NCBI RefSeq assembly: GCF_013459645.1
Contig: NZ_CP054861.1
Location: forward strand, 5,072,001-5,136,000
Reading direction: 5' to 3'
Origin: Martelella sp. NC20
Lineage (GTDB): Bacteria; Pseudomonadota; Alphaproteobacteria; Rhizobiales; Rhizobiaceae
Length of the DNA stretch: 64,000 nucleotides
Below the pieces are notes generated by a model. The model searched no databases and had not been told where the DNA came from. It worked only from the letters and a program-made list of their open reading frames with translations. The position numbers were made by a program, and so were the translations under genes. Positions 48,967 through 64,000 of the stretch are shown piece after piece. Positions within the stretch are counted from its first letter, which is position 1, and the number at the start of each line of letters is the position of its first letter.

Positions 48967-48990
48967 ATACCAGGGACTGGTCCCTGGTAT
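48967..48990 (-). terminator. 24-bp perfect palindrome between binding-protein and ATPase genes
   Basis: ATACCAGGGAC and GTCCCTGGTAT flank a two-base centre. As RNA it would need a few more unpaired bases but still forms a strong stem. It matches the position of hairpins after the other binding-protein genes; an operator role (ACCA/TGGT arms) is an alternative. Confidence 0.55.
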
Positions 48991-48998
48991 AAGCCCGG

Positions 48999-49994
48999 TC
49001 AATCCTGGAAGGTTGCCCGGACCTGTTCGTCGCTGAGGCGGGTATTGGCCCAGAAGGAGTCGGACAGGTCGTCGCGGGTGAACTCGCCGAGGTTTTCCGA
49101 GGTGATCATCGGCACGTCATATACCTTGTTCTTTTCGACCTCTTCGCCCTGAAGCAGGTCGAGCGCGACCAGAAGGGCTTCGGAGCCGAGCCATGTCGGC
49201 TTCGAGGGCGCCACGGATTCAAAGCCGTCGGCCTCAAGCGCCGTCCAGCGCTTCAGATAACCGTTATTGTCCTCGCCGGTCATCGGCACCAGCGGACGCT
49301 GCGCCGCCTCGAAGGCATCGATCGCGCCGAGCGTCATGCTGCCGCCCTGCGACCAGACGCCGTCGATTTCCGGATTGGCCGCCAGAAGGTTGGAAACCGC
49401 GACCTTGGCCTTGGCATAGTCCCAGCCGGCATCGACGACGCTGATGACCTCGATATCGGGGTATTCCTCGAAAACGGCCTTCGCGCCGGTCCAGCGGTCA
49501 TCGCTGGCGGAAATGCCGGAAATGCCGTTGAGCGCGATGATCCTGCCCTTGCCGTCCAGCTTGTCGGCCAGCCATTCGGCGCCCGCCTTGCCGAAATCGA
49601 CATCGTCGACGGTAACCAGCGCGTCATAATCATCGCTGCGGATGGTCGAGGCGAGCAGCACAATCCTGATGCCCTTGGCTTCAGCCTTCTTCAGCACCGG
49701 GATAACCGCCGTCGGCGAGATCGGCGTGAGGATGACGGCGTCGACGCCGCGCGTGATCATGTCCTCGATGTTGGAGACCTGCTTGTCGGCCTTCAGCTCG
49801 GACTCGGTATAGACGACATCGACTTCGTCGCGATGCCGTTCGGCCTCGGCCTCGAACTCCTTCGAGAGCTGAACCGACCAGGAATTGCCGTTGAAATAAT
49901 TGTCGTAGCCGATGGTGAACTTTTCCTCAGCCATGGCAGGAACCGCCATGCCCGCAAGGACGGAGGCGACGAGAAGCAGTTTCTTCAGTTTCAT
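48999..49994 (-). CDS. RbsB-type sugar ABC transporter substrate-binding protein
   Basis: 331-residue periplasmic receptor with signal peptide to about residue 22 (MAVPAMAEE). Mature part FTIGYDNYFNGNSWSVQLSKEFEAEAERH, SNIEDMITRGVDAVILTPISPTA and GVWSQGGSMTLGAIDAFEAAQ. The ATG at 49994 follows AAGGGGAAAAAC. First gene of the seven-gene minus-strand operon reaching the GntR gene at 42877. Ligand is unknown. Confidence 0.92.
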   Translation of the reverse strand: MKLKKLLLVASVLAGMAVPAMAEEKFTIGYDNYFNGNSWSVQLSKEFEAEAERHRDEVDVVYTESELKADKQVSNIEDMITRGVDAVILTPISPTAVIPVLKKAEAKGIRIVLLASTIRSDDYDALVTVDDVDFGKAGAEWLADKLDGKGRIIALNGISGISASDDRWTGAKAVFEEYPDIEVISVVDAGWDYAKAKVAVSNLLAANPEIDGVWSQGGSMTLGAIDAFEAAQRPLVPMTGEDNNGYLKRWTALEADGFESVAPSKPTWLGSEALLVALDLLQGEEVEKNKVYDVPMITSENLGEFTRDDLSDSFWANTRLSDEQVRATFQD

Positions 49995-50043
49995 GTTTTT
50001 CCCCTTTTTCGAGAAGCCAAGCATGGCTATGCCTTATTGTTAG

Positions 50044-50065
50044 CTTGTACACTCATGTAGTCAAG
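50044..50065. promoter_or_regulatory. Operator-like site B of the putative GntR regulon
   Basis: On the minus strand it reads CTTGACTACAT then GAGTGTACAAG, 22 bases, same frame and ends as site A. It lies about 50 bases upstream of the binding-protein start and overlaps a -35-like TTGACT. Confidence 0.6.
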
Positions 50066-50115
50066 TTGGAATCCGCGAAAGCAGATCGTTTTGCGGCAAC
50101 ACGCCATCCTGCCTG

Positions 50116-51306
50116 TTATTGCGGCAGACCGTCGACGGCGCGACGCACCCAGTCCAGCCGCTTTTCCGGGATAAGGCCGTAATTGTAGAAGTTGATGCCG
50201 TCCGCGCCGGCCTCGATCGCGGCCCGGGCCCGATCGGCGAGGGCCTCGGGCGAGGTCACTTCCGGGTAGAAGACCCGGTAGCCGGCGCCGAGATATTTTT
50301 CCGGGCCGAGCGCTTCACGCCCCGCCTTCATCAGGGCTGCGACCTGTTCGGGCTCCATGAAATAGCAGCACAGGATCGCGCCGTCGCAGACCTTGCCGAC
50401 GGCCTGAAGATCGACGCCGCCCATCCAGCCATCGGCAAGATCGATGAGCACGATCCTGCTTGCAGGATCGGCCTTGGCGCGGATTTCGGCAATCAGGCTG
50501 GTGACCGGCTCCGTGCGCCATTCGAGGAATGCACGCAGCGCCGGCCAGGCATTGAAGGCGTCATTGCCCGCCGCCGGGAAGTCCGGAAACTGCCTTTCGG
50601 GCACATCGCGCTCGCAAAGTTCGGCAATGAAGCCGCGCACCGTAGCGCGCGCGTCCTCCATCGGCACGCTGGCCAGCCGGCCGCGCGCCATGCAATGGTC
50701 GCAGAAGCACAGCGACAGCAGGAAATCATCCTCGGCATTGAGCCCGACGCCGTCCTTCTCATGGTGGAATTCATGGGCAAATCCCATGAAATTGGGGCTT
50801 TCGAGCTCGACCATGTCAGGCCGGTAACGCGTCGTCATATCGCGCACGAGGGTGACCACGTAGTCGCGCGCGGCAGGGCTCGACGGGCAGAGGTTATAGT
50901 AGTTGGGATTGCCGAACGCGTTGCGCGTCACATGACCGGGATGCAGCATGCCAAGCCGGGTATTATGCAGACACACCGTCCAGCACGACACCTTCATGCC
51001 GCTGCCGGCATCGCGCGCAGTCGTGAGCGCTTCCAGCATGTCGCCGCGCTCGGCCACATTGTCGGCCATCAGCGGGCGGATCGACTTGCCTTCCCACAAC
51101 GCTTCGTCGGGACGGAAATAGACCGTTCCGTCCTGCGGGAAGTAGGCCTTTTGCTTGGGGCTGCGCGGCTGGAGGAACCGGCCGGCGTGATAGGACGAGG
51201 CAAGAGAAATGCTGTTCAGCCCCGCCCGCCCGGCAAGATCGAAAAACGTCCGTTCAAGCCCCTGACCCTGCACGTCCCAGGGATAGGTCCACATCGAAAG
51301 ATGCAT
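50116..51306 (-). CDS. Uncharacterised 396-residue protein, probable TIM-barrel enzyme
   Basis: No characterised family recognised. Soluble, no signal peptide. It opens MHLSMWTYPWDVQGQGLE and has segments suggestive of a beta/alpha barrel: LNSISLASSYHAGRF, KVSCWTVCLHN, DMVELESPNFMGFAHEFHHEKDG (Glu and His rich), ILCCYFMEP, GINFYNYGL. LCFCDHC offers a possible metal site. The ATG at 51306 has GGAG seven bases upstream; the longer frame to 51339 would run into operator site C. It is transcribed towards the start of the sugar/lactone operon and shares its operator type, so it likely acts on the same substrate. Confidence 0.8.
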   Translation of the reverse strand: MHLSMWTYPWDVQGQGLERTFFDLAGRAGLNSISLASSYHAGRFLQPRSPKQKAYFPQDGTVYFRPDEALWEGKSIRPLMADNVAERGDMLEALTTARDAGSGMKVSCWTVCLHNTRLGMLHPGHVTRNAFGNPNYYNLCPSSPAARDYVVTLVRDMTTRYRPDMVELESPNFMGFAHEFHHEKDGVGLNAEDDFLLSLCFCDHCMARGRLASVPMEDARATVRGFIAELCERDVPERQFPDFPAAGNDAFNAWPALRAFLEWRTEPVTSLIAEIRAKADPASRIVLIDLADGWMGGVDLQAVGKVCDGAILCCYFMEPEQVAALMKAGREALGPEKYLGAGYRVFYPEVTSPEALADRARAAIEAGADGINFYNYGLIPEKRLDWVRRAVDGLPQ

Positions 51307-51328
51307 CTGAAGCTCCGCATGTTGATCA

Positions 51329-51350
51329 CATGACTGCACATGTAGTCATA
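51329..51350. promoter_or_regulatory. Operator-like site C of the putative GntR regulon
   Basis: Minus strand TATGACTACATGTGC then AGTCATG, sharing TGACTACAT with sites A and B. It ends 22 bases upstream of the 396-residue gene. Confidence 0.5.
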
Positions 51351-51756
51351 TAAATCATGCAGGTGTCAAATGTACTTCGACCTGTCAGTTGTGAATTGAC
51401 GCCAGTCACCGGGTCTGAAGCCGTCCGGTGGTGAGACGACGGCTCTTCAGGTCGTGAACAAGCGTCCCAAGCCGACACGGCGCCGCCGAATTGCCATCCG
51501 TGGTTATGCACATATGTGCATAATTTTTTTTAAAACTCTCTAATCCTACAATATTTCATATATATTTCAGATAGTTAAACAAATTATTTGATTGCACTCG
51601 CGTGTCATTTTTTGAATTTTCCCTTTGACACCTTTGGAAATTGCTGCAACCGTGCACGTCAGATCGTCGATCCATGGCTGTATCGGTTTCCGCGATGCAC
51701 GGGAGTGCAATCGGAAAACCCTGCAAATGGCTGGTGACGACCACGGGAGGAGAGAC
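51351..51756. other. Control region upstream of the phosphate-ester transporter operon
   Basis: About 400 bases without a convincing gene, AT-rich at 51515-51620. It contains a 20-bp perfect palindrome, TTATGCACATATGTGCATAA (51504-51523), followed by a T-run, and the LacI-type site at 51634-51654. It probably carries the promoters of the orphan 396-residue gene and the rightward operon. Confidence 0.6.
51634..51654. promoter_or_regulatory. LacI-type operator-like site, copy 1
   Basis: TTGGAAATTGCTGCAACC and the next three bases match 18 of 21 positions of the site at 63402-63422 just upstream of the LacI gene. The core resembles GTTGCAAC, a typical LacI-family centre. It lies about 100 bases before the first cistron of the transporter operon. 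Confidence 0.65.
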
Positions 51757-51807
51757 ATGAAACAGAATATTCCACCGCTGCGCATGCGGGGTTTGCGCAA
51801 TGAGTAA
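51757..51807 (+). CDS. 16-codon leader ORF overlapping the permease start
   Basis: An ATG at 51757 stands behind GGGAGGAGAG, the strongest ribosome site of the operon, and opens a 16-residue peptide, MKQNIPPLRMRGLRNE. Its TAA (51805-51807) falls just inside the permease gene, whose ATG is at 51800. The permease itself has only a poor GGGG site, so it may be translated by coupling to this leader. It could instead be a non-functional coincidence or a leader-peptide regulator. Confidence 0.5.
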   Translation: MKQNIPPLRMRGLRNE

Positions 51808-53632
51808 CGCCGCGGAACCTGTTGGCCGACCAGCCGGGTCGAGCTGGATCACCAGGCTGAAATACCGGACCCGGATCGCCATGCGGGAGCCGACCACGGT
51901 GATCGGCCTGCTGATGGCGGTTTTGTTCACCTATCTGATTGTCGTTCCGATCATCTCGATCCTTCTCGACGCCGTGCAGACCCAGTTCGGCGATTCACGA
52001 CGCACCGGCGCCGCCGTCGGCGAATGGACCAGCTATTACCTGCACAGGACTTTCCTGTCCCCGGTCGCGCGCGACATGTTCTGGGAGCCGCTGAGGAACA
52101 CGCTCAGCGTTGCCTTCGGCGCAATCGTCGTATCGGTGATCGTCGGCGGCATCCTCGCCTGGCTGATCAGCCGCACCGACATGTTTGCGAGGCGCTGGTT
52201 CGCCACGGCGCTGATCGTGCCCTACATGCTTCCCGCCTGGACCTTCGCGCTGGCCTGGAACACGCTTTTCAAGAACCGCACGGTCGGCGGCCAGCAGGGC
52301 TGGGTCGAGGCGATGGGTTTCTCGCCGCCGGACTGGCTGGCTTACGGCCAGGTGCCGATTACCGTTATCCTGGCGCTGCACTATACCCCCTTCATCATCC
52401 TGCTGTTCGGCAGCGCACTGCGCCGCTTCGACAGCCAGCTCGAGGACAGCGCGCGGATGCTCGGCGCCAGCCGGGGCCGGATCGCATGGTCGATCGTGCT
52501 GCCGCTGATGAAACCGGCGCTGATCTCGGCGATCGTGCTGATCTTCGCCAAATGCCTGGGCGAGTTCGGCGTCGCCTATGTGCTGGGCCTGCCGGTCAAG
52601 TTCGACGTGCTCGCCACCTCGCTCTACCGCAATCTCGGCTCGCGCCAGACCGGCGTCGCGGGCGTACTCGCCGCTTCGATCATGATCCTCGGCATTATGA
52701 CGCTTTTGATCGACGCCTATCTGATCCGCGAGGCCCGCAGGTTCGTGACCGTGGGCTCCAAGGGCTCGATGAACCGCCTGTCCCGGCTGCGGGGCATGCG
52801 GCTGCCGGCGACCGGTTTCGCCGCCTTTATCTTCCTGATCAGCGTCGGCCTGCCGGTTCTGACGCTGTTCCTGTCCACCGTGATGCACGTCCCGGCGCGT
52901 TTCACCTGGGAGAACTTTACGCTCGATTACTGGCTGGGCACCAATCTCGACACGGTCGCGCTGCAGCAGGGCATCCTGCTGACGCCCGAACTGTGGAGCG
53001 CGGCCTGGAACACGTTGTGGATCGTCGGCTCGGCGTCGGTCGTGTCCGGGCTCCTGGGCCTGCTCGTCGGCTACGCCGTGGTCCGCACGCCGTTGCGCCC
53101 GCTTGGCAGTTTCCTCAGGCAGGTGACGTTCTTCCCCTATCTGGTGCCGGGCATCGCCTTCGCGGCGGCCTATCTGTCGCTGTTCGCCGTCCAGCGCGGC
53201 CCGATACCGGCCCTTTACGGAACCATGGCGATCCTGATCCTGGCGCTGATCGCCGACCAGATGCCCTATGCCTCGCGCGCCGGGATCTCGGCGATGATGC
53301 AGCTCGGCAAGGAACCCGAGGAGGCGGCGCAGGTCGCGGGATCGAGCTGGTTCCACCGGATGACCCGCATCGTCGTGCCAATCCAGAAGGGATCGCTGGT
53401 CACCGGCGTGCTGCTGCCGTTCATCTCGGGCATCAAGGGCCTCAGCCTGTTCGTGGTGCTGGCGGTGCCCTCCACCGACGTGCTGACCACCTATTCGCTG
53501 CGGCTCGTCGACTACAACTATACCCAGGCCGCCAATGCGGTGGTCCTGATCGTCGCGGGGCTCGCCTATTTCGGCACGCTCATCGCGCAGAAGCTTACCA
53601 AGACAAATCTCGCCGAAGGCCTGGGAGGATAA
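51800..53632 (+). CDS. Fused double permease of Fbp/Afu-type ABC importer
   Basis: 610-residue inner-membrane protein with about twelve transmembrane segments and two BPD_transp_1 domains. EAA-like loops are seen at about 213-240 (QLEDSARMLGASRGRIAWSIVLPLMKP) and 500-530 (EEAAQVAGSSWFHRMTRIVVP). Tandem-domain permeases occur in iron (FbpB/SfuB) and sugar-phosphate (AfuB) importers. Clustering with four phosphatase genes favours an organophosphate or sugar phosphate over Fe3+. Four bases separate it from the ATPase gene. Confidence 0.9.
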   Translation: MSNAAEPVGRPAGSSWITRLKYRTRIAMREPTTVIGLLMAVLFTYLIVVPIISILLDAVQTQFGDSRRTGAAVGEWTSYYLHRTFLSPVARDMFWEPLRNTLSVAFGAIVVSVIVGGILAWLISRTDMFARRWFATALIVPYMLPAWTFALAWNTLFKNRTVGGQQGWVEAMGFSPPDWLAYGQVPITVILALHYTPFIILLFGSALRRFDSQLEDSARMLGASRGRIAWSIVLPLMKPALISAIVLIFAKCLGEFGVAYVLGLPVKFDVLATSLYRNLGSRQTGVAGVLAASIMILGIMTLLIDAYLIREARRFVTVGSKGSMNRLSRLRGMRLPATGFAAFIFLISVGLPVLTLFLSTVMHVPARFTWENFTLDYWLGTNLDTVALQQGILLTPELWSAAWNTLWIVGSASVVSGLLGLLVGYAVVRTPLRPLGSFLRQVTFFPYLVPGIAFAAAYLSLFAVQRGPIPALYGTMAILILALIADQMPYASRAGISAMMQLGKEPEEAAQVAGSSWFHRMTRIVVPIQKGSLVTGVLLPFISGIKGLSLFVVLAVPSTDVLTTYSLRLVDYNYTQAANAVVLIVAGLAYFGTLIAQKLTKTNLAEGLGG

Positions 53633-53635
53633 GGC

Positions 53636-54754
53636 ATGCCGGGAATTACGCTGAAGAACATCAAGAAAAGTTACGGCGCCTACGAGGCGATCCACCAACT
53701 GGATCTCGCGGTGGCGGACGGAGAATTCCTGTGCCTGCTGGGCCCGTCGGGGTGCGGCAAGACCACAACGCTCAGGATGATCGCGGGACTGGAGAACCTG
53801 TCCAGCGGCGAGCTGGCGGTCGGCGATCGTGTCGTCGACTGCCCCGAGACCGCCACCTTCATCGCGCCTGAAAAACGCGGCATGGGCCTGGTATTCCAGA
53901 GCTATGCGCTGTGGCCGCATTTGACCATCGAGCAGAATGTCGAATTCGGCCTCAAGCTCCGCAAGGTCCCCAAGGCCGACCGCCAGAAACGCACCGCCGA
54001 GGTGATGGAGGCACTGGGGATCGGCAAATACGGCGAACGCTATCCCTCGCAGCTTTCGGGCGGTCAGCAGCAGCGCGTGGCGTTGGCCAGAATGCTGGCG
54101 GTGAACCCGAGCGTTCTGCTTCTCGACGAACCGCTCTCCAACCTCGACGCCCGCCTGCGCCTTGAAATGCGGGCCGAACTGAAGCGGATACACAACCAGT
54201 TCTCGACCACCATCGTGTTCGTCACCCACGACCAGTGGGAGGCGATGACGCTCGCCGACACGATCGCGGTGATGAACGAGGGCACGCTGCAACAGCTCGG
54301 CACGCCCGACGATATCTACGAGCGACCCGCCAACCGCTTCGTCGCGGAATTCGTGGGTTCGCCGCCGATCAACATCCTCGACTTCGCCCGCAAGGACGAA
54401 CTGGTCCAGAACGTGATGCGCTTTCTTTCGGTGCGCCACCCGGAGATTTCCGGCATCGGCTCGGTCGGCATCCGTCCCGAGGCGATTTCGCTGGTCGCCG
54501 GCAAGGACGATCTGGCCGAGGGCGATTTCGGCGCGCCGGCGCGGGTGGCCGCTATCCTGCCCACCGGCGGAAGCTGGATCATCGAGCTCGAAACCGGCGG
54601 CGAGGTGATTTTCATGAACACCCATATCGCGCCGGGCGTGCGCGAGGGAGACCGGATGCATTTCCGCGTCCAGGCGCGCGCGCTGAACGTCTTCGACGGC
54701 GACGGCAACCGCATCCACGCGGCGGACGAGGTTCTGGCCGCCGCCGCCGCATGA
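53636..54754 (+). CDS. Fbp/Afu-type ABC transporter ATP-binding protein
   Basis: 372 residues. Walker A GPSGCGKTT (about 36-44), Q loop VFQSYALWPHLTIEQN, signature LSGGQQQR, Walker B VLLLDEPLSNLDA, H-loop VTHDQWEAM, and a C-terminal TOBE domain (IRPEAISLVAGKDDLAEGDFG). Sits between the fused permease and the three receptors and drives the import. Confidence 0.94.
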   Translation: MPGITLKNIKKSYGAYEAIHQLDLAVADGEFLCLLGPSGCGKTTTLRMIAGLENLSSGELAVGDRVVDCPETATFIAPEKRGMGLVFQSYALWPHLTIEQNVEFGLKLRKVPKADRQKRTAEVMEALGIGKYGERYPSQLSGGQQQRVALARMLAVNPSVLLLDEPLSNLDARLRLEMRAELKRIHNQFSTTIVFVTHDQWEAMTLADTIAVMNEGTLQQLGTPDDIYERPANRFVAEFVGSPPINILDFARKDELVQNVMRFLSVRHPEISGIGSVGIRPEAISLVAGKDDLAEGDFGAPARVAAILPTGGSWIIELETGGEVIFMNTHIAPGVREGDRMHFRVQARALNVFDGDGNRIHAADEVLAAAAA

Positions 54755-54782
54755 ACCACTGTTTTTCAGGGAGGAGAAACAC

Positions 54783-55904
54783 TTGACCATCAACGACAAA
54801 ACCACCACCGCGCTCTCGGCGCTGGCCCTCGGGATCGCGCTTGGCGGCGCGGCTCAGGCGCAGGAGAGCGGTTTCGACATCGACGCGCTCGTCGAGGCAG
54901 CCCGGGCCGAGCCGCCGATCACCGTCTATGCGGTGACCGGCAAGATCGTCGGCACCGCCGAGGCCTTCACCGCGCTCTACGGCGTCGTGGCCGCCGGCAA
55001 GAAGGTGAACGAGGCCGACCAGATCGACCTGATGATCCGCGAATATCAGGCCGGCAACATTGTCGGCGATCTCGGCGTGGCCGCCGATGTCGGCTCGATC
55101 ATGGGACAGTTGATCCCGGAAGGCATCGTCACAAGCTGGCTGCCGCCGGACCTTGCGGGCAACATCCCCGAAGGACAGCAGGATCCGGTGGTGGTCGTGT
55201 CGGACCCGCATGTCTGGACCTATTCCACCGAGGTCTATGACGCCTGCCCCGTCGACAATATCTGGGCGCTGACCGAGCAGGAATGGCACGGCAAGGTCGC
55301 CATGCTCGACCCGCTGGTGAAGCCGAACTACGCCGACTGGTTCAACCAGCTCGAGACCCATCACGACGACGCCATGGCGGAAGCCTACGAGGCTCATTTC
55401 GGCAAGCCGATCGACCGGTCGGATGAAAGCGCGACCCAGCAATGGGTGCGGATGTATGCCGGGAATGCGCCGCTTCTGGGCGACAGCACCTCGGTCGCCG
55501 AGGCCGTGGGCGCCGTCGGGCAGGCGGAGCCGTTCTTCGGGATCATGTCGACCGCGAAGTTCCGGTCCAATACAAGCGGCGAAACCGCGCTCGGCATTTG
55601 CGGCGGGATGCAGCCTTTCTCCGGCTGGCTCTATCCGGGGCTCGCCGTGATGGCCGCCGGCACGGACAGCCCGAACGCGGCGAAGCTCTTCGTCCATTAC
55701 CTGCTCAGCGAAGACGGCATCGCGCCGATGTCGGTCGACGGCAAGGTCTCGTCCAACAGCGCCGTGCCGCCTAACCCGCAAGAGGTGTCGGGCGTCGCAG
55801 GGTTCATGGACGAGTTGATGGTCTACGACACCGCGACTGCCGCGGAGGATTTCGACAAGCGCCAGGACTGGCAGGATTTCTGGCGCATTCACTACAGCCG
55901 ATAA
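54783..55904 (+). CDS. Periplasmic binding protein paralogue 1 (Fbp/Afu-type)
   Basis: 373 residues. TTG start at 54783 after GGGAGGAG; signal peptide to about residue 27 (GGAAQAQ). Mature part FDIDALVEAARAEPPITVYAVTGKIVGTAEAF. Shares with the next two genes the patterns WLPPDLA, YD.CPV..IW, ADWFNQ.E.H.DDA, GTDSPNAA.LF.HY and the C-terminal RQDWQDFWRIHYSR. Two conserved cysteines (in YDACPV and GICGG) could form a disulfide. It is the most divergent copy: it has VTGKIVGT where the others have DSTGKIV.M. Confidence 0.88.
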   Translation: MTINDKTTTALSALALGIALGGAAQAQESGFDIDALVEAARAEPPITVYAVTGKIVGTAEAFTALYGVVAAGKKVNEADQIDLMIREYQAGNIVGDLGVAADVGSIMGQLIPEGIVTSWLPPDLAGNIPEGQQDPVVVVSDPHVWTYSTEVYDACPVDNIWALTEQEWHGKVAMLDPLVKPNYADWFNQLETHHDDAMAEAYEAHFGKPIDRSDESATQQWVRMYAGNAPLLGDSTSVAEAVGAVGQAEPFFGIMSTAKFRSNTSGETALGICGGMQPFSGWLYPGLAVMAAGTDSPNAAKLFVHYLLSEDGIAPMSVDGKVSSNSAVPPNPQEVSGVAGFMDELMVYDTATAAEDFDKRQDWQDFWRIHYSR

Positions 55905-55908
55905 CTTC

Positions 55909-55930
55909 CGGCCCGCGGAGGAGCGGGCCG
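55909..55930 (+). terminator. Hairpin after binding-protein paralogue 1
   Basis: CGGCCCGC pairs perfectly with GCGGGCCG over a 6-base loop, five bases after the stop codon. Confidence 0.6.
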
Positions 55931-55962
55931 CAACCACATCTCAACGGGAGGAGAGGAAAGAC

Positions 55963-57072
55963 ATGAGACGGACTATTTTAAAAACAACCGGCGCGCTCGC
56001 CCTTTGCCTGACGGCGATCGGCGCTCATGCCGAGGAATTCGACCTCGACGTGTTGATCGAGAGCGCGAAGGGCGAGCCGCAGCTTACGGTGTTCGACAGC
56101 ACCGGCAAGATCGTGACGATGGCGGAAAACTTCTCCGCCAAATACGGCTTGGAGGCGGTGGGCCAGAAGGTCAAGGCCCATGCCCAGCTGGAGATGATGG
56201 CGCGCGAGGCGATGGCCGGAAACGTGCAGGGCGACGTCTCGATCATCTCGGACGCGCCGGCGGCGATCACGGAGCTGTTGCCGAACGACTTCGCCGTCAG
56301 CTGGGTGCCGCCGGACCTCGCCGACGTGATCGAGGCGCGCTATCAGAACCCGCTGGTCGTGGTCACGATGGCCAATGTCTGGACCTACAACACCGAGCTC
56401 TACGATAGCTGCCCCGTCTCGAATGTCTGGGAACTGACCCGGCCGGAATGGCGCGGCAAGGTGGCGATGCAGGACCCGCTGAACAAGTCGGTCTACACCG
56501 ACTGGTTCAACCAGATGGAATCCCACGGCGACGATGCTCTCGCCGCCGCCTATGAGGACTTTTTCGGCAAGCCGATCGATACGTCCGAACAGAGCGCGAC
56601 GGAGCAATGGGTCGCCATGCTTGCGGCGAATGCGCCGCTGCTCGGCGGCTCCGACAGCAACGCGGCCGAGGCCGTGGGCGCGCCCGGGCAGAAGGAAGGC
56701 TTCATGGGCCTGATGAGCTCGGCGAAATACCGCGACAACGAGGCCTCCGGCTACAAGCTCGGCCTTTGCGGCGAGATCAAGCCGTGGCTGGGCTTCACCA
56801 ATGTCGGCGTCGGACTGATTGCACCCGGCACGGACAGCCCGAACGCGGCCAGGCTGTTCATCCATTACGCAATGACGGCCGAAGGCATCGCCCCGCAGGC
56901 CGAGGATGGCAAGAAATCCGCCAATACCGAGGTCGGCCTGCCTGACGACGAGCCCTCGGGCATCGCCGCCGCCTGGGACCAGTTGCTGACCTACGACCTC
57001 ACCACCGCGATGGAAGACTACGACACGCGGCAGGACTGGCAGGATTTCTGGCGCCTGAACTACGCCCGATAA
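55963..57072 (+). CDS. Periplasmic binding protein paralogue 2 (Fbp/Afu-type)
   Basis: 369 residues with signal peptide to about residue 23 (IGAHAEE). Mature region FDLDVLIESAKGEPQLTVFDSTGKIV, SDAPAAITELLPNDFAVSWVPPDLADV, YDSCPVSNVWELT, GTDSPNAARLFIHYAMT and C-terminal RQDWQDFWRLNYAR. Very similar to paralogue 3. Ribosome site GGGAGGAGAGG. The small differences around the likely ligand cleft suggest distinct but related ligands. Confidence 0.9.
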   Translation: MRRTILKTTGALALCLTAIGAHAEEFDLDVLIESAKGEPQLTVFDSTGKIVTMAENFSAKYGLEAVGQKVKAHAQLEMMAREAMAGNVQGDVSIISDAPAAITELLPNDFAVSWVPPDLADVIEARYQNPLVVVTMANVWTYNTELYDSCPVSNVWELTRPEWRGKVAMQDPLNKSVYTDWFNQMESHGDDALAAAYEDFFGKPIDTSEQSATEQWVAMLAANAPLLGGSDSNAAEAVGAPGQKEGFMGLMSSAKYRDNEASGYKLGLCGEIKPWLGFTNVGVGLIAPGTDSPNAARLFIHYAMTAEGIAPQAEDGKKSANTEVGLPDDEPSGIAAAWDQLLTYDLTTAMEDYDTRQDWQDFWRLNYAR

Positions 57073-57079
57073 ACGAACT

Positions 57080-57104
57080 GGCCGGGCAACCAAAATGCCC
57101 GGCC
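57080..57104 (+). terminator. Hairpin after binding-protein paralogue 2
   Basis: GGCCGGGCA pairs perfectly with TGCCCGGCC over a 7-base loop, seven bases after the stop codon. Confidence 0.6.
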
Positions 57105-57127
57105 GTCATCAGGGGAGGAGACCCGAT

Positions 57128-58246
57128 ATGAACAACATGACGCAGATACAAACGAGCATGACAGCCCTGGCGCTGACGGCCGCACTGGCCGCGCCGGCGC
57201 TTGCCCAGGATTTTAATCTCGACGCACTGGTCGAGGCCGCAAAGGGCGAACCGCAGCTGACCGTCTACGACAGCACCGGCAAGATCGTGGAAATGGTCGA
57301 GAACTTCGCCGGCAAATACGGGGTCGACGCCATCGGCCAGAAAGTCAAGGCGACCTCGCAGCTTGAAATGGTGATCCGGGAATCGCAGGCCGGCAACGTG
57401 CAGGGCGACGTGCTGATGATCACCGACGCGCCGGCAGCGCTTGCCCAGCTTCTTCCCGAGAACTTCGTCTACAGCTATCTGCCGCCGGACATGGCCGATG
57501 TGATCCCCGCCAGCTATCAGGACCCGCTGACGGCGACCACCAATGCCAACGTCTTCGCCTATAACACCGAGGTCTACGACACCTGCCCGGTGACCAACAT
57601 CTGGGCGCTGACCGATCCGGAGTGGAACCGGCGCTTCGCCATGATCGACCCGCTGTCCAAGTCGAGCTACACCGACTGGTTCAGCCAGATGGAAAGTCAC
57701 CATGACGACGCCGTCCGCGCCGCCTACGAGGCGCATTACGGCAAGCCGCTCGAAACCGAATTCGACAGCGCCACCAAGGCCTGGGTCGCAGCCATTGGCG
57801 CAAACGCGCCGCTGGTGACGGAGGGCGACGACAACACCTCCGCCGCCGTCGGCGCGCCCGGCCAGCAGGAGCCGTTCTTCGGGCTGATGTCCTCGGCCAA
57901 GTTCCGCGATGTCGCGGACAAAGGCTATGAAATGGCCATCTGCGACACGCTGGAGCCGTGGGTCGGCTGGACCTATTCCAAGCTGGCGCTGATCGCATCG
58001 GGCACCGACAGCCCGAACGCGGCCGAGCTGTTCGTGCACTATGTCCTGACCGAGGAAGGCATTGCCCCGCAAATGGTCGACGGCAAGGTGCCGACGAACA
58101 CCACCATCGCGATGCCCGATGATGAGCCGTCCGGCATCGTAGACCTTTGGGACAACCTGCAGGCCTACGATTCAACGACCGGGCTGGACGATTGGGACAG
58201 CCGCCAGGACTGGCAGGATTTCTGGCGCATCCACTACAGCCGCTGA
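57128..58246 (+). CDS. Periplasmic binding protein paralogue 3 (Fbp/Afu-type)
   Basis: 372 residues from the ATG at 57128, after AGGGGAGGAGAC. Signal peptide to about residue 28 (APALAQ). Shares FNLDALVEAAKGEPQLTVYDSTGKIVEM, YDTCPVTNIWALT, GTDSPNAAELFVHYVLT and RQDWQDFWRIHYSR with its neighbours, including both conserved cysteines. A third receptor for one permease/ATPase pair suggests a widened ligand range. Confidence 0.9.
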   Translation: MNNMTQIQTSMTALALTAALAAPALAQDFNLDALVEAAKGEPQLTVYDSTGKIVEMVENFAGKYGVDAIGQKVKATSQLEMVIRESQAGNVQGDVLMITDAPAALAQLLPENFVYSYLPPDMADVIPASYQDPLTATTNANVFAYNTEVYDTCPVTNIWALTDPEWNRRFAMIDPLSKSSYTDWFSQMESHHDDAVRAAYEAHYGKPLETEFDSATKAWVAAIGANAPLVTEGDDNTSAAVGAPGQQEPFFGLMSSAKFRDVADKGYEMAICDTLEPWVGWTYSKLALIASGTDSPNAAELFVHYVLTEEGIAPQMVDGKVPTNTTIAMPDDEPSGIVDLWDNLQAYDSTTGLDDWDSRQDWQDFWRIHYSR

Positions 58247-58262
58247 CCTCCCAGGCAGCCGC

Positions 58263-58289
58263 GCCCCGGGCTCTCGATGAGCCCGGGGC
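58263..58289 (+). terminator. Hairpin after binding-protein paralogue 3
   Basis: GCCCCGGGCTC pairs perfectly with GAGCCCGGGGC over a 5-base loop, the strongest of the three receptor hairpins. It separates transport genes from enzyme genes. Confidence 0.65.
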
Positions 58290-58312
58290 ACAACAACGAA
58301 GGACCCAAGACA

Positions 58313-59182
58313 ATGACCGCCATCGCCGAAACCGCGCTCCCCTCGCCCGCCCGCCTGCGCGAAGTCGCCGAAACCGTGGCGCGGGCCGCGGGTACGCCGC
58401 TGACCGCCGTGTTTCGCGCCGACATGACCGTGGACTACAAGGCCGACCTGCATGACCCCGTGACGGTCCACGACAAGCGCACCGAGGCGATGATCCGCGA
58501 AAGCCTGCTGGCCGAGGTCCCCGGCTCCGCCATCGTCGGCGAGGAAGGCGGCGAGATTGGCAGCGGCCCGGTCAAATGGTTCGTGGATCCGATCGACGGC
58601 ACCTCGAATTTTGCCGCCGGCCTCGCCTTCTGGTGCGTCTCGATCGGGGCCGTGGTCGATGGCCGGATCGTCGCCGGCGCGGTCTACGACCCGATGGCCG
58701 ACAACCTGTTTTCCGCCGATACCGACGGCGCATCGCTGAACGGCGCGGCGCTCATCTGCCCCGAGGTCCGCGACGAGGCGCGCGCGACGCTGATCACCGG
58801 CTACCCGGTCCAGCGCGACTTCCGTCTGGAAGGACGCGAGGCGGCATTGGCGGGGCTCGGCGATCTGATCTCCGCGTTCTCGTGCCTGCGCCGTCCCGGC
58901 AGCGCTGCCCTCAGCCTCTGCCATGTCGCGGCCGGCTGGGCGGATGCGGCCGCGGGCTTCGGCGTCAACGCCTGGGACGTTACCGCCGCGATCCTGATCC
59001 TGGAACGCGCCGGCGGCAACTATCGTCCCCTGACGCTGGGCAAGCAGCCAGACGGAGCGCCGGCGCATCACTGCCCGGGCTATGTCGCGCAGGGCCCCGG
59101 TGGTCGTTTTTCAACCCTCGACCGCGTCGCCGACGCCGTGGATTCCCGCCGCCGCGCAAGCGCCATGGCCCCTGCCCTGTGA
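58313..59182 (+). CDS. Inositol monophosphatase-family phosphatase 1
   Basis: 289 residues from the ATG at 58313 (AAGGA upstream; a longer frame to 58277 overlaps the hairpin). Mg-dependent phosphatase motifs: GEEGGE near residue 77, WFVDPIDGTSNF at about 90, and NAWDVTAAILILERAGG at about 219. The family removes phosphate from inositol-, sugar- or nucleotide-phosphates. Cytoplasmic. Positioned directly after the transporter, it would act on the imported phosphorylated ligand. Confidence 0.92.
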   Translation: MTAIAETALPSPARLREVAETVARAAGTPLTAVFRADMTVDYKADLHDPVTVHDKRTEAMIRESLLAEVPGSAIVGEEGGEIGSGPVKWFVDPIDGTSNFAAGLAFWCVSIGAVVDGRIVAGAVYDPMADNLFSADTDGASLNGAALICPEVRDEARATLITGYPVQRDFRLEGREAALAGLGDLISAFSCLRRPGSAALSLCHVAAGWADAAAGFGVNAWDVTAAILILERAGGNYRPLTLGKQPDGAPAHHCPGYVAQGPGGRFSTLDRVADAVDSRRRASAMAPAL

Positions 59183-59246
59183 CGATGACCACCTTTACCA
59201 AAACACCGGCGCCCGCGCGCCGTCTCTTCAACGGAGCCTCCCCTGC

Positions 59247-60092
59247 ATGAGCCAAGCAGCCACATCCGCAGACAAGCAAATCCTCGATCGCGCCGACCTG
59301 TGTCTCTCCCTCGCCCAGAGCGCCGGCCGGATCGCGCTGGACGGTTTCCGCCGCCGCGAATTCGAAGAGATCGCAATGAAGGGATCGCAGGATTTCCTGA
59401 CCGAGACCGATGCCGCGGTCGAAGCGCATCTGAAAGCGCGCCTTGAAAGCGCCCTGCCCGAGGACGAGTTCCTCGGCGAGGAAACCGGCGGCGCGGTCAG
59501 CGGGCGCTCGGTCTGGGTCGTGGACCCGATTGACGGCACCGCCAATTTCGCCCGCGGCATTCCGCATTTCTGCATTTCCATCGCCTATGTCCGCGATGGC
59601 ATCACCGAGATCGGCGCGATCTTCGCCCCGGCGACAAAGGAGCTGTGGTTTGCTCGGCGCGGCGCGGGTGCGACCTGCAACAGCCGGCCGATCCACGTCG
59701 CCGGAACCCGCAGCTTCTCAGCCGCCTGCCTGGAGCTCGGCTGGAGCAACCGCCGCCCGCAGCAGGACTATCTGACGGTCATGAACCGCTTGCTCGATCA
59801 CGGCGCGAACCTCCGCCGCGCGGCCTCCGGCGCGCTGGGGCTTGCCTATGTTGCCGATGGCCGCTCAGACGGTTATGCAGAATTGCACATGAATGCCTGG
59901 GATTGCCTGGCCGGCCTGCTGCTGGTCGAGGAGGCCGGCGGCCGGGTCAGCGACCTGCCGGAGGATGGCCTGGGCCAGGGCGGCCCGGTGCTGGCCGTCG
60001 TGCCGGCGCTGGCCTCGGCAGTCAGCGCGGCGACCGGCATTGCGCTGGCCTCCCTGTCGAACGAAACAGACCGCGCAAGGATGATCGCATGA
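59247..60092 (+). CDS. Inositol monophosphatase-family phosphatase 2
   Basis: 281 residues with GEETGG (about 77), WVVDPIDGTANFARG (about 91) and MNAWDCLAGLLLVEEAGG (about 216), the three metal-binding motifs. Clearly diverged from its upstream neighbour, so the pair probably handle different phosphate positions or sugars. The ATG at 59247 follows ACGGAG; the frame upstream overlaps the first phosphatase. The stop overlaps the next gene by 4 bases. Confidence 0.92.
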   Translation: MSQAATSADKQILDRADLCLSLAQSAGRIALDGFRRREFEEIAMKGSQDFLTETDAAVEAHLKARLESALPEDEFLGEETGGAVSGRSVWVVDPIDGTANFARGIPHFCISIAYVRDGITEIGAIFAPATKELWFARRGAGATCNSRPIHVAGTRSFSAACLELGWSNRRPQQDYLTVMNRLLDHGANLRRAASGALGLAYVADGRSDGYAELHMNAWDCLAGLLLVEEAGGRVSDLPEDGLGQGGPVLAVVPALASAVSAATGIALASLSNETDRARMIA

Positions 60093-60742
60093 ACCACGCC
60101 AGCCCGTTGCCCAAATCGCCCCGCTATGACCGCCCCGAAATCAGCCTGATCGAGGAACGGCTGGAGCCGTACGGCATCGCCGTCTATGTCGGCGGACGCG
60201 AGGGCATGTCGAACCTGCCGCTGCTGCGCGAACACAACATCACCACCGTCGTGAACTGCGCCGTCAATCTCGACATCAACCTCGTCGACGCCCCCGACCC
60301 CTCGATCGAAGAGGGGCACCTGACCTATGGCCACGGCGCCTATCGCTATTACAAGCTCGGCCTTGTCGACGGCGCCGGCAATGCCGAAACCATGATTCTT
60401 GCCGGCTATTACCAGCTGCTTGGCGCGCTGTCGCAAATCCTGCCGGACCGCGCCTCCTATCCGCGGCGCGAACGCGGCAATGTGCTGGTGAACTGCCGTG
60501 GCGGTCGCAGCCGTTCGGTGGCGCTCGTGGCGCTGCTCCTGCATAAGCAGATGCCCGACCGCTACCCGACGATCGAGGGTGCGCTGGACCACGTCCGCAC
60601 CCGGCGTGAACTGCGCCCCGACGAATGGTTCGAAGCGCCCAAGCCGATGCTGGTCGAGGCCACGCGCAAGGCCTCCGCCTGGATCGACCGGATCGACCAC
60701 CGCGACCCCGAACATGCGGACAGGGACGGTCACGCGCAATGA
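60089..60742 (+). CDS. Dual-specificity (cysteine-type) protein phosphatase-like
   Basis: 217 residues. The active site VNCRGGRSRSVALVALLL holds C136 and R142 (C-x5-R) but the usual His before the Cys is Asn. DSP-type start IAVYVGGREGMSNLPLLREHNITTVVNCAVN. The usual conserved Asp general acid may lie in the YYKLGLVDGAGNAE loop. Such enzymes can act on phosphoproteins or on phosphoinositides and inositol polyphosphates; context favours a small-molecule role. Coupled to both neighbours by ATGA overlaps. Confidence 0.82.
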   Translation: MNHASPLPKSPRYDRPEISLIEERLEPYGIAVYVGGREGMSNLPLLREHNITTVVNCAVNLDINLVDAPDPSIEEGHLTYGHGAYRYYKLGLVDGAGNAETMILAGYYQLLGALSQILPDRASYPRRERGNVLVNCRGGRSRSVALVALLLHKQMPDRYPTIEGALDHVRTRRELRPDEWFEAPKPMLVEATRKASAWIDRIDHRDPEHADRDGHAQ

Positions 60743-62319
60743 TCCGCATCGCCGTCCTGTCCGATCCGCATCTGCATGACGTCCGCTTCGGCAGCGCCGC
60801 CGCCGAGGCGCGGTTCGTGCGCTCGCTTTCCGACAGCCTGCACTCCACCCGCGTCTTCAACGAAAGCGAGGCGGCGTTTCGCGCGGCCCTCGACACCGTC
60901 GCGGCCGAGGGGATCAGGCTGTGCATCATCGTCGGCGATCTGACGGATGACGGCCAGTCCGCGAACTGGCAGGCGGTCTCGGACTTTCTGGCGGACTATA
61001 GCCGTCGCCATAGCATCCGCTTCTTCGCCACGCCCGGAAACCACGACCAGTGGTCGATGACCGGCAAGCCGCTAGCCAAGAATTTCGTCGACCCGGCCGG
61101 CAATGTCGCGGCTTTCGCGGGCCAGGGCCTGCCGGGTAGCGACGGCGCGCAATCCTGCCCCGGCATGCGCATGCTCGGCTATGACGAAGCGCTGCCCTAT
61201 GCCGGAGAGTTCGGCTACCACCCGCACCCTTCCGACCTGCACTGGGAAACCCCCTTCGGCACCACGCCCGATATGGCAGGCCGCAGGTCGCGGGTCACCT
61301 CGGACCGGGGCGACAGCGCCCTGATCAGCGACATGTCCTATCTGGTCGAGCCGGTCGAGGGGCTGTGGCTGCTCTCGATCGATGCGAATGTCTATCTGCC
61401 GGACGGGGACGGCGGTTTTGTCGATTGCAGCAAGGACGGCTGGAACGCCACGCTGCGGCACAAGCCCTATCTGCTGGACTGGATGCGCGATGTCGCCCGC
61501 CGGGCCAGGGCGGAAAACAAGCGGCTGGTCGCGTTCTCGCACTACCCCGTCGCGGATATCTTCTGCGGCCTGACGGCAGAGCTCGAAACCCTGCCTGGCT
61601 CGCGCGCCGGCGCAAGGCGGATGCCGACGTCGGATGTCGCCGCCGCCATCGCCGCCACCGGTATTCCACTGCATTTCAGCGGTCACTGGCACGTGGATGC
61701 CACAGCGACTGCGGGCGGGCTGGTCAACGTCTCCGTACCCTCGACCGTCGCCTATCCCGCCGGCTGGAAATGTCTCGAGATCGACGCCGACGGCACGCAT
61801 ATCTCGGACCGCGCCCTGCCCGATGCTCCCGGGTTCGATGCCTGGTTCGCCCGCTACGCCGCCGAGGCCGACCGCACGGGACAGGACAGATCGGTTCTGA
61901 GCGCCGCGGATTACCGCCAGTTCCTCGACCGGCACTTCCGCGCCATCGTCCTGCAGCGTCGCCTGCCCGAGGACTGGCCGCCACAGTTGCAGGCGATGGC
62001 GGAGCGCGCGCGCCTGCCGGAACTCGTCACGCGCCTGTCGCTTCCGCAAGCCGCCCGTCCCGACATTGCCTTCGCCGATATCTTCGTCGACTGGTACCGC
62101 CTGCGCGAGGCCGGCGGGGGCGCTGCGGCCGGCGTATCGAGGGAGCGCCGCGCGCTTTACGCCGAGCTTGCGCAAGGCTGCGCCCGGATGGATTACCCGG
62201 AGGGCTCCGACGCCGCCATTCTCGCGGTCTTCCTGCGCACGCTCGGACTTCTGCTCAAAGGCTATGACGCGAAACGGGCGGCGCTCGACCGGCTCAAGGA
62301 GGCCTATGTCCCGTGCTAG
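60739..62319 (+). CDS. Calcineurin-like metallophosphoesterase
   Basis: 526 residues. Metal motifs: SDPHLHD (D9, H11), GDLTDDG (66-72), GNHDQ (100-104), FSHYPV and GHWHVD (about 314-319). The C-terminal 170 residues are helical and not part of the standard fold. No signal peptide, so cytoplasmic; a phosphodiesterase step before the monophosphatases is plausible (for example on a glycerophospho- or nucleotide-linked ligand). The TAG stop forms the start of a dispersed repeat. Confidence 0.88.
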   Translation: MIRIAVLSDPHLHDVRFGSAAAEARFVRSLSDSLHSTRVFNESEAAFRAALDTVAAEGIRLCIIVGDLTDDGQSANWQAVSDFLADYSRRHSIRFFATPGNHDQWSMTGKPLAKNFVDPAGNVAAFAGQGLPGSDGAQSCPGMRMLGYDEALPYAGEFGYHPHPSDLHWETPFGTTPDMAGRRSRVTSDRGDSALISDMSYLVEPVEGLWLLSIDANVYLPDGDGGFVDCSKDGWNATLRHKPYLLDWMRDVARRARAENKRLVAFSHYPVADIFCGLTAELETLPGSRAGARRMPTSDVAAAIAATGIPLHFSGHWHVDATATAGGLVNVSVPSTVAYPAGWKCLEIDADGTHISDRALPDAPGFDAWFARYAAEADRTGQDRSVLSAADYRQFLDRHFRAIVLQRRLPEDWPPQLQAMAERARLPELVTRLSLPQAARPDIAFADIFVDWYRLREAGGGAAAGVSRERRALYAELAQGCARMDYPEGSDAAILAVFLRTLGLLLKGYDAKRAALDRLKEAYVPC

Positions 62320-62355
62320 AGCAATTCCAGGAAAAGCGGATACCGGTTTTCCGTC
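62317..62355. repeat. Dispersed palindromic repeat, copy 3
   Basis: TAGAGCAATTCCA then GGAAAAGCGGATACCGG and TTTTCC. As in copy 1, TAGAGC includes the stop codon of the upstream gene. It lies in the convergent gap with the LacI gene and may serve as terminator. Confidence 0.7.
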
Positions 62356-62372
62356 CGGAGGTGCGTGACATT

Positions 62373-63392
62373 CTAGCCCATGCGCACGGTCTTGCGCCAG
62401 ACCGGCAGCACCTCGAAGGCGGAATCGCTGCCGATGGTATCCGAGGTCAGGATCTCGGCAATGCGGGCGACCATCTCGTCCATGGGCTGGCGGAACGTGG
62501 TCAGCTCATAGCAGGACCAGCGCGCCTGCGGCACGTCATCGAACCCGATCACGCAAAGGTCGCGCGGGATCTCGACGCCGAATATGTTGCGGGCGGCATC
62601 GATGAAGCCGAAGGCCAGCAGATCGGTCACGCAGAACACGCCGTCGGGCGGGTTCGACCGCCCCAGAAGAACGCGGGCGGATTCCTGACCGGTTTCATAG
62701 CTAGTGGGGCCGACCCGGACAACGTCGATCTCGATCCCCACCTCGGCGGCGGCCTCGGCGAAGGCGCTCTCGCGCGTGGTCATGGACGAGGTCCGCGCCT
62801 GCGACGAGACACAGGCCAGCCGCGCGCAGCCCGCCCGCCTAAGCAGCGCCAGCGCTTCGCGGCAGGCCGAGCGATTGTCGATACGGATGCGCTCGGCGCC
62901 TTCGGCGTCGTCGTCGCGGTTGACCAGCACCACCCGCTGACCGTTCGAAAGACAGCTCTGCACCAGCTTTGCCGGCGGCGACCCGCTGAGCACCACCGAG
63001 GCTTCTGCACGGTAGTGCAGGCTTTGCCTCAACGCCTGGCTGACGCTATCATCGTCGCCGGCGGTATTGATCAACATCGCCACCTTGCCGTGGAGCTGAA
63101 GCTGGCGGGTGACCTTGTCGATCATCGCGCTATGGTAAGGCTGCCCGACATCGGCGGCGATCAGACACACGATCTTGGACGGCTCGCCGACCAGTCCACG
63201 CGCCAGGAGATTGGCATGATAGCCCAGTTCCTCTGCCGCTTTCATCACCTTGCGCCGCGTGGCGGGCGCCACGCTGCCGGCGCCGGAAAAGGTGCGCGAC
63301 ACGGCCGACCGGGAAACCCCGGCGCGTTCCGCCACCTCGTTGGCGCTGACGTAGGAAACCCTGTCGGCGCGGGGCGTGGTCGATCCAGTCAT
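62373..63392 (-). CDS. LacI family regulator of the phosphate-ester locus
   Basis: 339 residues from the ATG at 63392. Helix-turn-helix SANEVAERAGVSRSAVSRTFSGAGSVAPATRRKV (about 16-49), then a periplasmic-binding-like sensor (IVCLIAADVGQPYHSAMIDKVTRQL, PPDGVFCVTDLLAFGFIDAAR, CVIGFDDVPQARWSCYELTTFRQP). It is convergent to the phosphatase genes and divergent from the Na/Pi gene. The 21-base site 10 bases upstream of its start recurs before the transporter operon, linking it to both. Confidence 0.9.
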   Translation of the reverse strand: MTGSTTPRADRVSYVSANEVAERAGVSRSAVSRTFSGAGSVAPATRRKVMKAAEELGYHANLLARGLVGEPSKIVCLIAADVGQPYHSAMIDKVTRQLQLHGKVAMLINTAGDDDSVSQALRQSLHYRAEASVVLSGSPPAKLVQSCLSNGQRVVLVNRDDDAEGAERIRIDNRSACREALALLRRAGCARLACVSSQARTSSMTTRESAFAEAAAEVGIEIDVVRVGPTSYETGQESARVLLGRSNPPDGVFCVTDLLAFGFIDAARNIFGVEIPRDLCVIGFDDVPQARWSCYELTTFRQPMDEMVARIAEILTSDTIGSDSAFEVLPVWRKTVRMG

Positions 63393-63401
63393 GCACAGCC
63401 T

Positions 63402-63422
63402 TTGAAAATTGTTGCAACCATG
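63402..63422. promoter_or_regulatory. LacI-type operator-like site, copy 2
   Basis: TTGAAAATTGTTGCAACC and the next three bases; contains the palindrome GTTGCAAC (63411-63418). It matches the site at 51634-51654 in 18 of 21 positions. It lies in the divergent LacI / Na-Pi spacer and could regulate both. Confidence 0.65.
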
Positions 63423-63511
63423 TTCACTCGTGAGACTAATGCCTTGCCCCGCGCCGCTCAAGCAAAAGCTGACGCCGGCATGCCACCGGCAAACCGGAGC
63501 GGAGGCGCGGC

Positions 63512-64000
63512 ATGAACTCGACGATCCAGCTCATCGATCTTCTGGGTGCGGGCGCGCTGGTTCTCTGGGCCCTGCGGATGATCAAGTCGGGGATCCTGTC
63601 GGGCTTCGGCGCTTCGCTCAGGCAGGGCATCGCCAGGGGCACCGGCAACCGGGTCTTCGCGGCGATCTCGGGCATGTTGGTCACCATCGCGGTGCAATCC
63701 TCGACGGCAACCGCGGTGATCGCCGGCTCTTTCGTCTCGCGCAACATCATCGCCCCGCGCATGGCGCAGGCGGTGCTGCTCGGCGCCAATCTGGGCACGG
63801 CCCTGACCGCCGCTATCCTGGTGCGTGACCTGCACTGGCTGTCGCCGGCGCTGGTTCTGTGCGGCGTCGTGATCCATGCCCGCAGCCGGCTTGCGCGCGG
63901 GCGGGGCATTGGCAAGGCGCTGATCGGGCTTGGCCTGATGCTGCTGGCGCTGGAACTGCTCGGCGGCGCCACGGAGCCGCTTCGGGAGGCGGAGGTGACC
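63512..64000 (+). CDS. Na/Pi cotransporter family protein (PNaS), N-terminal part only
   Basis: 163 codons visible, open at the window end. Hydrophobic segments alternate with conserved family motifs: LGAGALVLWALRMIKSGI, the ion-site VQSSTATAVIAGSFV and LLGANLGTALTAAI. Bacterial members such as E. coli YjbB export phosphate. The ATG at 63512 has GGAGG eight bases upstream. Position beside four phosphatases and the shared LacI-type site suggests it relieves cytoplasmic phosphate overload during growth on a phosphorylated substrate (inference). Confidence 0.88.
   Translation, partial: MNSTIQLIDLLGAGALVLWALRMIKSGILSGFGASLRQGIARGTGNRVFAAISGMLVTIAVQSSTATAVIAGSFVSRNIIAPRMAQAVLLGANLGTALTAAILVRDLHWLSPALVLCGVVIHARSRLARGRGIGKALIGLGLMLLALELLGGATEPLREAEVT

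Follow-up and report, generated by a model that had tools for sequence, protein, structure and literature searches.

A conserved gene cassette of Martelella sp. NC20 predicted to import inositol phosphates and to dephosphorylate them inside the cell

The 3′ end of a 64,000-nucleotide stretch of the genome of Martelella sp. NC20 (hereafter the window; positions C1:5072001-5136000 of a 6.1 Mb genome) holds a cassette of transport, phosphatase and regulatory genes that is analysed here as a candidate import system for inositol phosphates. Positions 51800-64000 were read in all frames and scanned against NCBIfam and Pfam. A run of genes on the plus strand starts with an ATP-binding cassette (ABC) permease of 610 amino acids, in which two fused BPD_transp_1 domains were recognised (51800..53632), and continues with an ABC ATPase bearing a TOBE domain (53636..54754; best model UgpC) and three periplasmic receptors, each over the cut-off for SBP_bac_11: receptor 1, with a TTG start (54783..55904), receptor 2 (55963..57072) and receptor 3 (57128..58246 from its likely start, the open reading frame (ORF) opening at 57095). 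These are followed on the same strand by two phosphatases of the IMPase family, PF00459 (IMPase 1 at 58313..59182 from its likely start, its ORF opening at 58277; IMPase 2 at 59247..60092), by a phosphatase of the dual-specificity (DSP) type (60089..60742), the gene used as marker of the cassette, and by an accessory calcineurin-like metallophosphoesterase of 526 amino acids (60739..62319). A divergent pair completes the set: on the minus strand a LacI-family regulator (ORF 62373..63461; start probably at 63359 or 63392, by eye), and on the plus strand a sodium/inorganic phosphate (Na/Pi) transporter with PhoU domains, whose gene occupies 63512..64000 and extends 1167 bases past the window end (551 amino acids in full). 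The original prediction, made from the letters of the window, had named these genes, and reading of the frames together with the NCBIfam and Pfam matches confirmed all of them; the 'several' ATGA overlaps it mentioned came down to two (IMPase 2/DSP and DSP/metallophosphoesterase), a slight overstatement.

The IMPases scored 167.5 and 189.7 bits against PF00459 (cut-off 27), and the metal-site motifs GEE, DPIDGT and NAWD were present in both translations (as GEEGGE, DPIDGTSNF and NAWD in IMPase 1, and as GEETGG, DPIDGTANF and NAWD in IMPase 2). The CX5R P-loop of the DSP was intact (CRGGRSR), its C136 and R142 being invariant in all 15 sequences aligned. The catalytic motifs expected of their families are thus present in all four phosphatases. 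Against DSPc (PF00782) the DSP reached 29.6 bits (E 7e-7), under the cut-off of 33.5, and it was therefore regarded as a divergent family member; its relative in locus L046 reached 33.8 bits. Bacterial phosphatases of the DSP type are labelled protein phosphatases in records. The metallophosphoesterase showed the motifs DxH, GD, GNHD, HYP and GHWH. Inspected by eye, the receptors had signal-peptide-like N-termini while none was visible on the four phosphatases, which implies that the compounds are taken up while still phosphorylated, by a transporter devoted to them. The Na/Pi transporter matched PF02690 (115.4 bits) and PhoU. YjbB, also a Na/Pi transporter, is said to promote Pi export (PMC10055408), and by analogy that of the window would release Pi from the cell.

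The nearest NCBIfam model for the permease was PhnU2 (TIGR03262); the score of 142.9 bits, where the curated cut-off is 593, places the protein outside this family of 2-aminoethylphosphonate (AEP) permeases. The ATPase gave 368.3 bits with UgpC, its nearest model (cut-off 432), 343.2 with PhnT2, the second (cut-off 457.7), and 278.7 with the ferric model NF008513, below its cut-off of 496. Phosphonate uptake and ferric uptake were both considered as the family of the transporter and rejected, the scores lying far under the curated cut-offs. Uptake of AEP by a system of the PhnSTUV or PhnU2 type, as the identity of the nearest permease model would suggest, is thus most improbable in view of the permease score, and no enzymes of the carbon-phosphorus bond were noticed by eye among the 45 largest neighbour clusters described below (no dedicated search was made). 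Uptake of ferric iron or of a metal chelate, with the phosphatases as bystanders, also has points in its favour: when the receptor profile was compared with solved structures its best relatives were annotated as iron-binding proteins, two plasmid records annotate the permease as 'iron ABC transporter permease', and a FecBCD-like siderophore system lies downstream (by eye). We regard it as very unlikely, given the ATPase score on the ferric model and the conserved association with genes for phosphatases and for a Pi transporter. The ligand may be a metal-inositol-phosphate chelate. The downstream genes, 3′ of the Na/Pi gene (L010:1174-8501), look by eye like those of a siderophore-interacting-like protein, FecBCD-like ABC components and a TonB receptor, and this siderophore-uptake-like set is apparently a separate unit.

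The window permease matched BPD_transp_1 alone, in two stretches. The myo-inositol permease presumably belongs to the ribose class (BPD_transp_2), so the window permease represents a transporter class other than that of the myo-inositol importer IbpA-IatA-IatP. The three receptors are paralogous (52-60% identity to one another), receptor 2 being the best match of the single receptor found in gammaproteobacterial cassettes. Their profile matched 4r72 (E 4.8e-8), one of an entry group, 4r72-4r75, that we take to be AfuA. The three window receptors share six basic residues (K49, K69, R81, K175, K255 and R257), which are also conserved in at least 42 of the 46 rows of the alignment; they might suit a receptor that binds polyanions.

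A search of genome contigs with the DSP yielded 136 relatives, the nearest named ones being from Martelella, and 80 of the 136 loci were analysed; several of these 80 stretches are cut by contig ends. A permease of at least 30% identity was present in 71 loci, an IMPase in 73, a LacI gene in 76, a metallophosphoesterase in 45 and a Na/Pi transporter in 36. The 16 gammaproteobacterial loci share a core of permease, ATPase, receptor, IMPase, DSP and LacI; neither the metallophosphoesterase nor the Na/Pi transporter was found in any of these 16 (one of which is a 4-kb contig), whereas the former occurs in 45 of the 64 other loci. Since this set of genes is found again in both Alpha- and Gammaproteobacteria, the arrangement is more than chance.

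The 80 loci had been gathered by means of the DSP, so the linkage test was repeated from the permease side. Among 394 Rhizobiaceae genomes, 65 places matched the permease at E <= 1e-80, and a DSP match (E <= 1e-80) was sought within 15 kb of them. It was found beside all 24 permeases of at least 70% identity, one of the six at 59-66% and six of the 11 at 37-48%. The original prediction would have been refuted had homologous transporters usually lacked phosphatase neighbours; 25 of the 30 permeases of at least 59% identity had the DSP within that distance. Of the DSP-less permeases in the 59-66% group, that in L108 has a LacI gene and an IMPase with a second ABC set. In the 37-48% group all five DSP-less stretches contain a phosphatase-like gene: L113 and, at a distance of ∼6 kb, L112 have an IMPase, L116 has an IMPase-like ORF, and L114 and L115 have a HAD phosphatase with a Na/Pi transporter (Pfam calls for L114). 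Five of the 24 places at 32-36% identity were inspected; a branch-1 histidine phosphatase was present in two, a Na/Pi transporter in two and neither of them in one (L117). In an even class-wide sample the DSP was rare (four of 385 genomes at E <= 1e-25).

The upstream regions of the cassettes share a palindrome whose best form is TTGCACA-NN-TGTGCAA. A first palindrome scan, which required a central CG, gave no shared operator; it was found when this requirement was dropped. The operator class WTGMACNNNNGTKCAW gave 91 matches in 61 of the 80 loci, compared with a mean of 1.3 for 719 permuted palindromic patterns, of which the top three (64, 48 and 39 matches) are near-copies of the operator pattern. 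All but two of the 91 matches (89, in 60 loci) are close to where a cassette gene starts. In L020 and L021 the operator lies between divergent phytase and permease genes, and in L081 between divergent MINPP-like and permease genes; such pairs with a LacI-type operator between them occur in Devosia and Vibrio. The own genome of the window has three strict sites. Two are upstream of the permease, predicted operator 1, ATGCACATATGTGCAT (51506..51521), a perfect palindrome, and predicted operator 2, ATGCACGGGAGTGCAA (51695..51710), neither being assigned a strand. The third, at C1:2759939, lies 33 bases upstream of a LacI paralogue 52% identical to the window LacI, which adjoins iolG, an iolR-like gene (by eye) and iolCDEB. 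No operator with fewer than two mismatches was present in the window between the LacI and Na/Pi genes. Between operator 2 and the permease, a putative 16-codon leader ORF with a strong ribosome-binding site (51757..51807, plus strand) has its last few bases in common with the start of the permease gene, making translational coupling to the permease possible. The best site for a Pho box upstream of the permease had five mismatches to the consensus, a value reached in 179 of 200 shuffles, and hence no control by PhoB is claimed; this fits a carbon-source system rather than a response to phosphate starvation.

The nature of the ligand was approached through the neighbours of the 80 loci, which were clustered, mapped for 14 loci and counted in all 80. 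At least one of iolB, iolC, iolD and iolE lies within the stretch in eight loci (L020, L021, L039, L062, L069, L070, L072 and L076) from five genera, Devosia, Neorhizobium, Parasedimentitalea, Cucumibacter and Marinomonas, the three Marinomonas loci being close kin. Representatives of IolB, C, D, E, G and MMSDH exceeded their NCBIfam cut-offs (in bits/cut-off, IolB 373/205; IolG 433 and 426/355; IolE 359/290; IolD 937/715; IolC fusion 698/600). In L021 the iolG ORF opens 12 bases 3′ of the Na/Pi gene on the same strand (likely start ∼60 bases further), and in L039 iolG stands just upstream of the IMPase-DSP-metallophosphoesterase genes, also on the same strand. A beta-propeller phytase (PF02333) is present in three loci (L020 and L021, by Pfam, and L022, as a short frame of 254 amino acids), and a MINPP-like His_Phos_2 enzyme in seven (L066, L077, L081, L083, L086, L090 and L091), two representatives being confirmed by Pfam; the 14 solved sequences that the L066 enzyme matched at E <= 0.001 all bear the name of MINPP or of histidine acid phosphatase. 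Altogether, 16 of the 80 loci have an iolB/C/D/E, phytase or MINPP-like gene. The Gfo/Idh and aldehyde dehydrogenase genes of L078, L054 and L079 were left out of the count of inositol-linked loci. The presence of two unrelated phytase types and of the inositol pathway beside one transporter points to inositol phosphates as the substrate class.

This linkage was also examined at the level of whole genomes. Fifty cassette genomes were hand-picked for diversity from the 80 loci; since they include all eight iol-linked loci, the unbiased count of linkage is eight of 80. IolB over the cut-off was found in 44 of the 50, and the DSP and IolB genes lay within 15 kb of each other in eight and within 30 kb in 10, the chance expectation being ∼0.4 within 16 kb; the iol genes of these eight had, however, been noticed before the set was selected. 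A beta-propeller phytase was found in six of these genomes (in three near the cassette) and His_Phos_2 in nine (again in three near it). Among the Rhizobiaceae, IolB was over the cut-off, as judged from best E-values, in 30 of the 31 genomes that carry the DSP (E <= 1e-80) compared with 233 of 363 others (Fisher p 4e-5, kinship not corrected for).

Two other phosphorylated ligands have to be set against these data. One is an inositol phosphodiester, for instance the glycerophosphoinositol that deacylation of phosphatidylinositol yields; the metallophosphoesterase would cut the diester and the IMPases would finish the inositol-1-phosphate. The iol linkage would fit it equally well, and the calcineurin-like enzyme, frequent outside the Gammaproteobacteria, is joined to the operon by an ATGA overlap. 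The absence of this enzyme from all 16 gammaproteobacterial loci, however, means that diester cleavage is not core, and the substrates of the neighbouring phytase and MINPP enzymes are phosphomonoesters; we consider the diester an unlikely ligand. The other is a hexose or heptose phosphate, imported by an AfuABC-like system with the iol and phytase linkage incidental. The transporter class is the same, the 4r72-4r75 entries are among the relatives of the receptor profile, and sugars are frequent effectors of LacI regulators. Against this, iol, phytase and MINPP neighbours were seen repeatedly, in several genera and in some cases under the same operator, and no sugar-phosphate pathway was noticed by eye among the 45 largest neighbour clusters, which renders this possibility a still less likely one. 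Of the ligands named in the original prediction (a phospho-sugar, a phospho-cyclitol or a phosphodiester), the second is thus the one to which the iol, beta-propeller phytase and MINPP neighbours narrow the choice, the other two being less favoured.

Several observations weigh against inositol phosphates as the ligand. It is deduced from neighbours in one fifth of the loci (16 of 80); 72 of the 80 have no iolB/C/D/E within the stretch, and Halomonas/Vreelandella account for six of the seven loci with a MINPP-like gene. IolB over the cut-off was not found in six of the 50 cassette genomes, and the beta-propeller phytase in three of its six genomes, like His_Phos_2 in six of its nine, is not near the cassette. 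The window copy itself adjoins no iol or phytase genes: in its own genome 2.36 Mb separate it from the iol operon, to which the cassette is tied only through the LacI paralogue and its operator. About one strict site is expected by chance in a 6 Mb genome (an estimate; none was found with the pattern reversed as a control), so the evidence of the third site lies in its position, not in the number of sites. A beta-propeller phytase was found in none of 13 genomes of the genus, and therefore is not part of this copy; the strain would use products made by others, or by phytases of types not searched for. Finally, four of the five DSP-less permeases at 59-66% identity (L107, L109, L110 and L111) adjoin a two-component system (by Pfam in L111, by eye in the others), with no phosphatase seen beside them. 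The genes next to these four permeases are those of a response regulator and a histidine kinase, and in L109 and L111 these are followed by an extra receptor-like protein.

On balance, the gene content and its conservation, the catalytic motifs, the conserved operator and the iol, phytase and MINPP linkage in relatives suggest that the cassette is probably a LacI-controlled catabolic import system for inositol phosphates, which would be dephosphorylated inside the cell and their Pi exported. The more general proposal of the original prediction, in which a phosphorylated small molecule is imported and dephosphorylated in the cell, Pi is exported and a single LacI protein governs the system, is supported by the conserved neighbourhoods, the operator and the distribution of signal peptides. 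In the mechanism proposed, up to three receptors, perhaps separate ones for separate isomers, would capture partly dephosphorylated products of phytate (InsP1 to perhaps InsP3), and the Fbp/Afu-type ABC transporter would carry them in still phosphorylated. In the cytoplasm the two IMPases, the DSP and the metallophosphoesterase would each clear different phosphates. IMPases handle the axial 2-phosphate poorly, and the extra phosphatases are perhaps needed for positions such as this. The freed myo-inositol would enter the Iol pathway, whose enzymes are encoded elsewhere in this genome, and surplus Pi would leave through the Na/Pi transporter. LacI would keep the operon repressed, through the TTGCAC-N4-GTGCAA operators, for as long as neither inositol nor a derivative of it is available.

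A wider reading is offered tentatively: the cassette may represent a single branch within a large family of importers for phospho-compounds, each combining an Fbp-type ABC transporter with ligand-specific cytoplasmic phosphatases and often a Na/Pi exporter, so that many 'iron ABC transporters' would serve in the uptake of organophosphates as carbon sources. Within this family IMPase and DSP would go with inositol phosphates, which would enter intact, perhaps as metal chelates, and HAD, histidine phosphatase or metallo-beta-lactamase-fold enzymes with other ligands.

The nearest described transporter in kind is AfuABC, an ABC importer of hexose and heptose phosphates whose receptor contacts the sugar through H205, D206 and E229 (PMC4546632). 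Both are Fbp-type ABC systems once annotated as iron uptake, and both would carry a phosphorylated polyol into the cell; the window cassette adds four phosphatases, a Pi transporter, LacI and up to three receptors, and its relatives adjoin iol, phytase and MINPP genes. Agrocinopine (acc) catabolism, encoded on Agrobacterium Ti plasmids, presumably resembles the cassette in that a sugar phosphodiester is imported and then processed by an intracellular phosphodiesterase and an IMPase-like phosphatase, and presumably differs in having a peptide-type ABC transporter and another regulator. The alphaproteobacterial import module for free myo-inositol is described as IbpA-IatA-IatP with iol genes and IolR (PMC2597717). 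It would feed the same Iol pathway, for which the own genome has iolG, the iolR-like gene and iolCDEB; it imports free inositol, whereas the window cassette, with its BPD_transp_1 permease, is proposed to import phosphorylated forms. In Mitsuokella a periplasmic phytase is described as making Ins(2)P and inositol before uptake (PMC7618129). The route from phytate through myo-inositol to central metabolism is alike; there the phytase acts before uptake, while the phosphatases of the window cassette have no visible signal peptides. For the regulator, IpsA, a LacI-type protein with myo-inositol as effector, offers a precedent for sensing of this compound (PMC3899939); it is actinobacterial and activates inositol synthesis.

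Related systems were seen in other places. A second, distant version in the same genome (L103, C1:3712000-3730000; genes at L103:7276-13853, minus strand) has a permease, ATPase, DSP and LacI 25%, 40%, 34% and 41% identical, respectively, to those of the window, and a metallo-beta-lactamase-fold protein (PF00753); no IMPase or metallophosphoesterase match was obtained in it. A third (L119, C2:154000-173999; genes at L119:4670-11977, minus strand) comprises an RpiR-like regulator (by eye), a receptor (30% identical), a permease (33%), an ATPase and a Na/Pi transporter (32%). In the Rhizobiaceae loci L114 and L115 the permease (37%) stands in a run with the HAD phosphatase and Na/Pi genes behind an RpiR-like regulator (by eye), which looks like another importer of a phospho-compound with a different phosphatase. 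On the other side of the window cassette, positions 47397-51339 (minus strand) hold genes for a ribose-type ABC ATPase and receptor and for a 407-amino-acid protein (50116-51339) that had no Pfam match at E <= 1e-4.

Inositol phosphates, and phytate above all, form a major organic phosphorus pool of soils and seeds, and phytate is a main phosphorus store of plants. In the accounts consulted (e.g. PMC7618129), the bacterial use of phytate rests on phytases acting before uptake. No bacterial inositol-phosphate importer was found in the open-access PMC literature, as far as titles and the starts of abstracts tell, among the matches listed. A dedicated importer would be a new step. If the reading given here is true, some bacteria use inositol phosphates as a carbon source, giving phosphate away, which would bear on phosphorus cycling in soil and sea and on plant-associated bacteria; it would also provide a function for DSP-type phosphatases now labelled protein phosphatases and for transporters labelled iron uptake.

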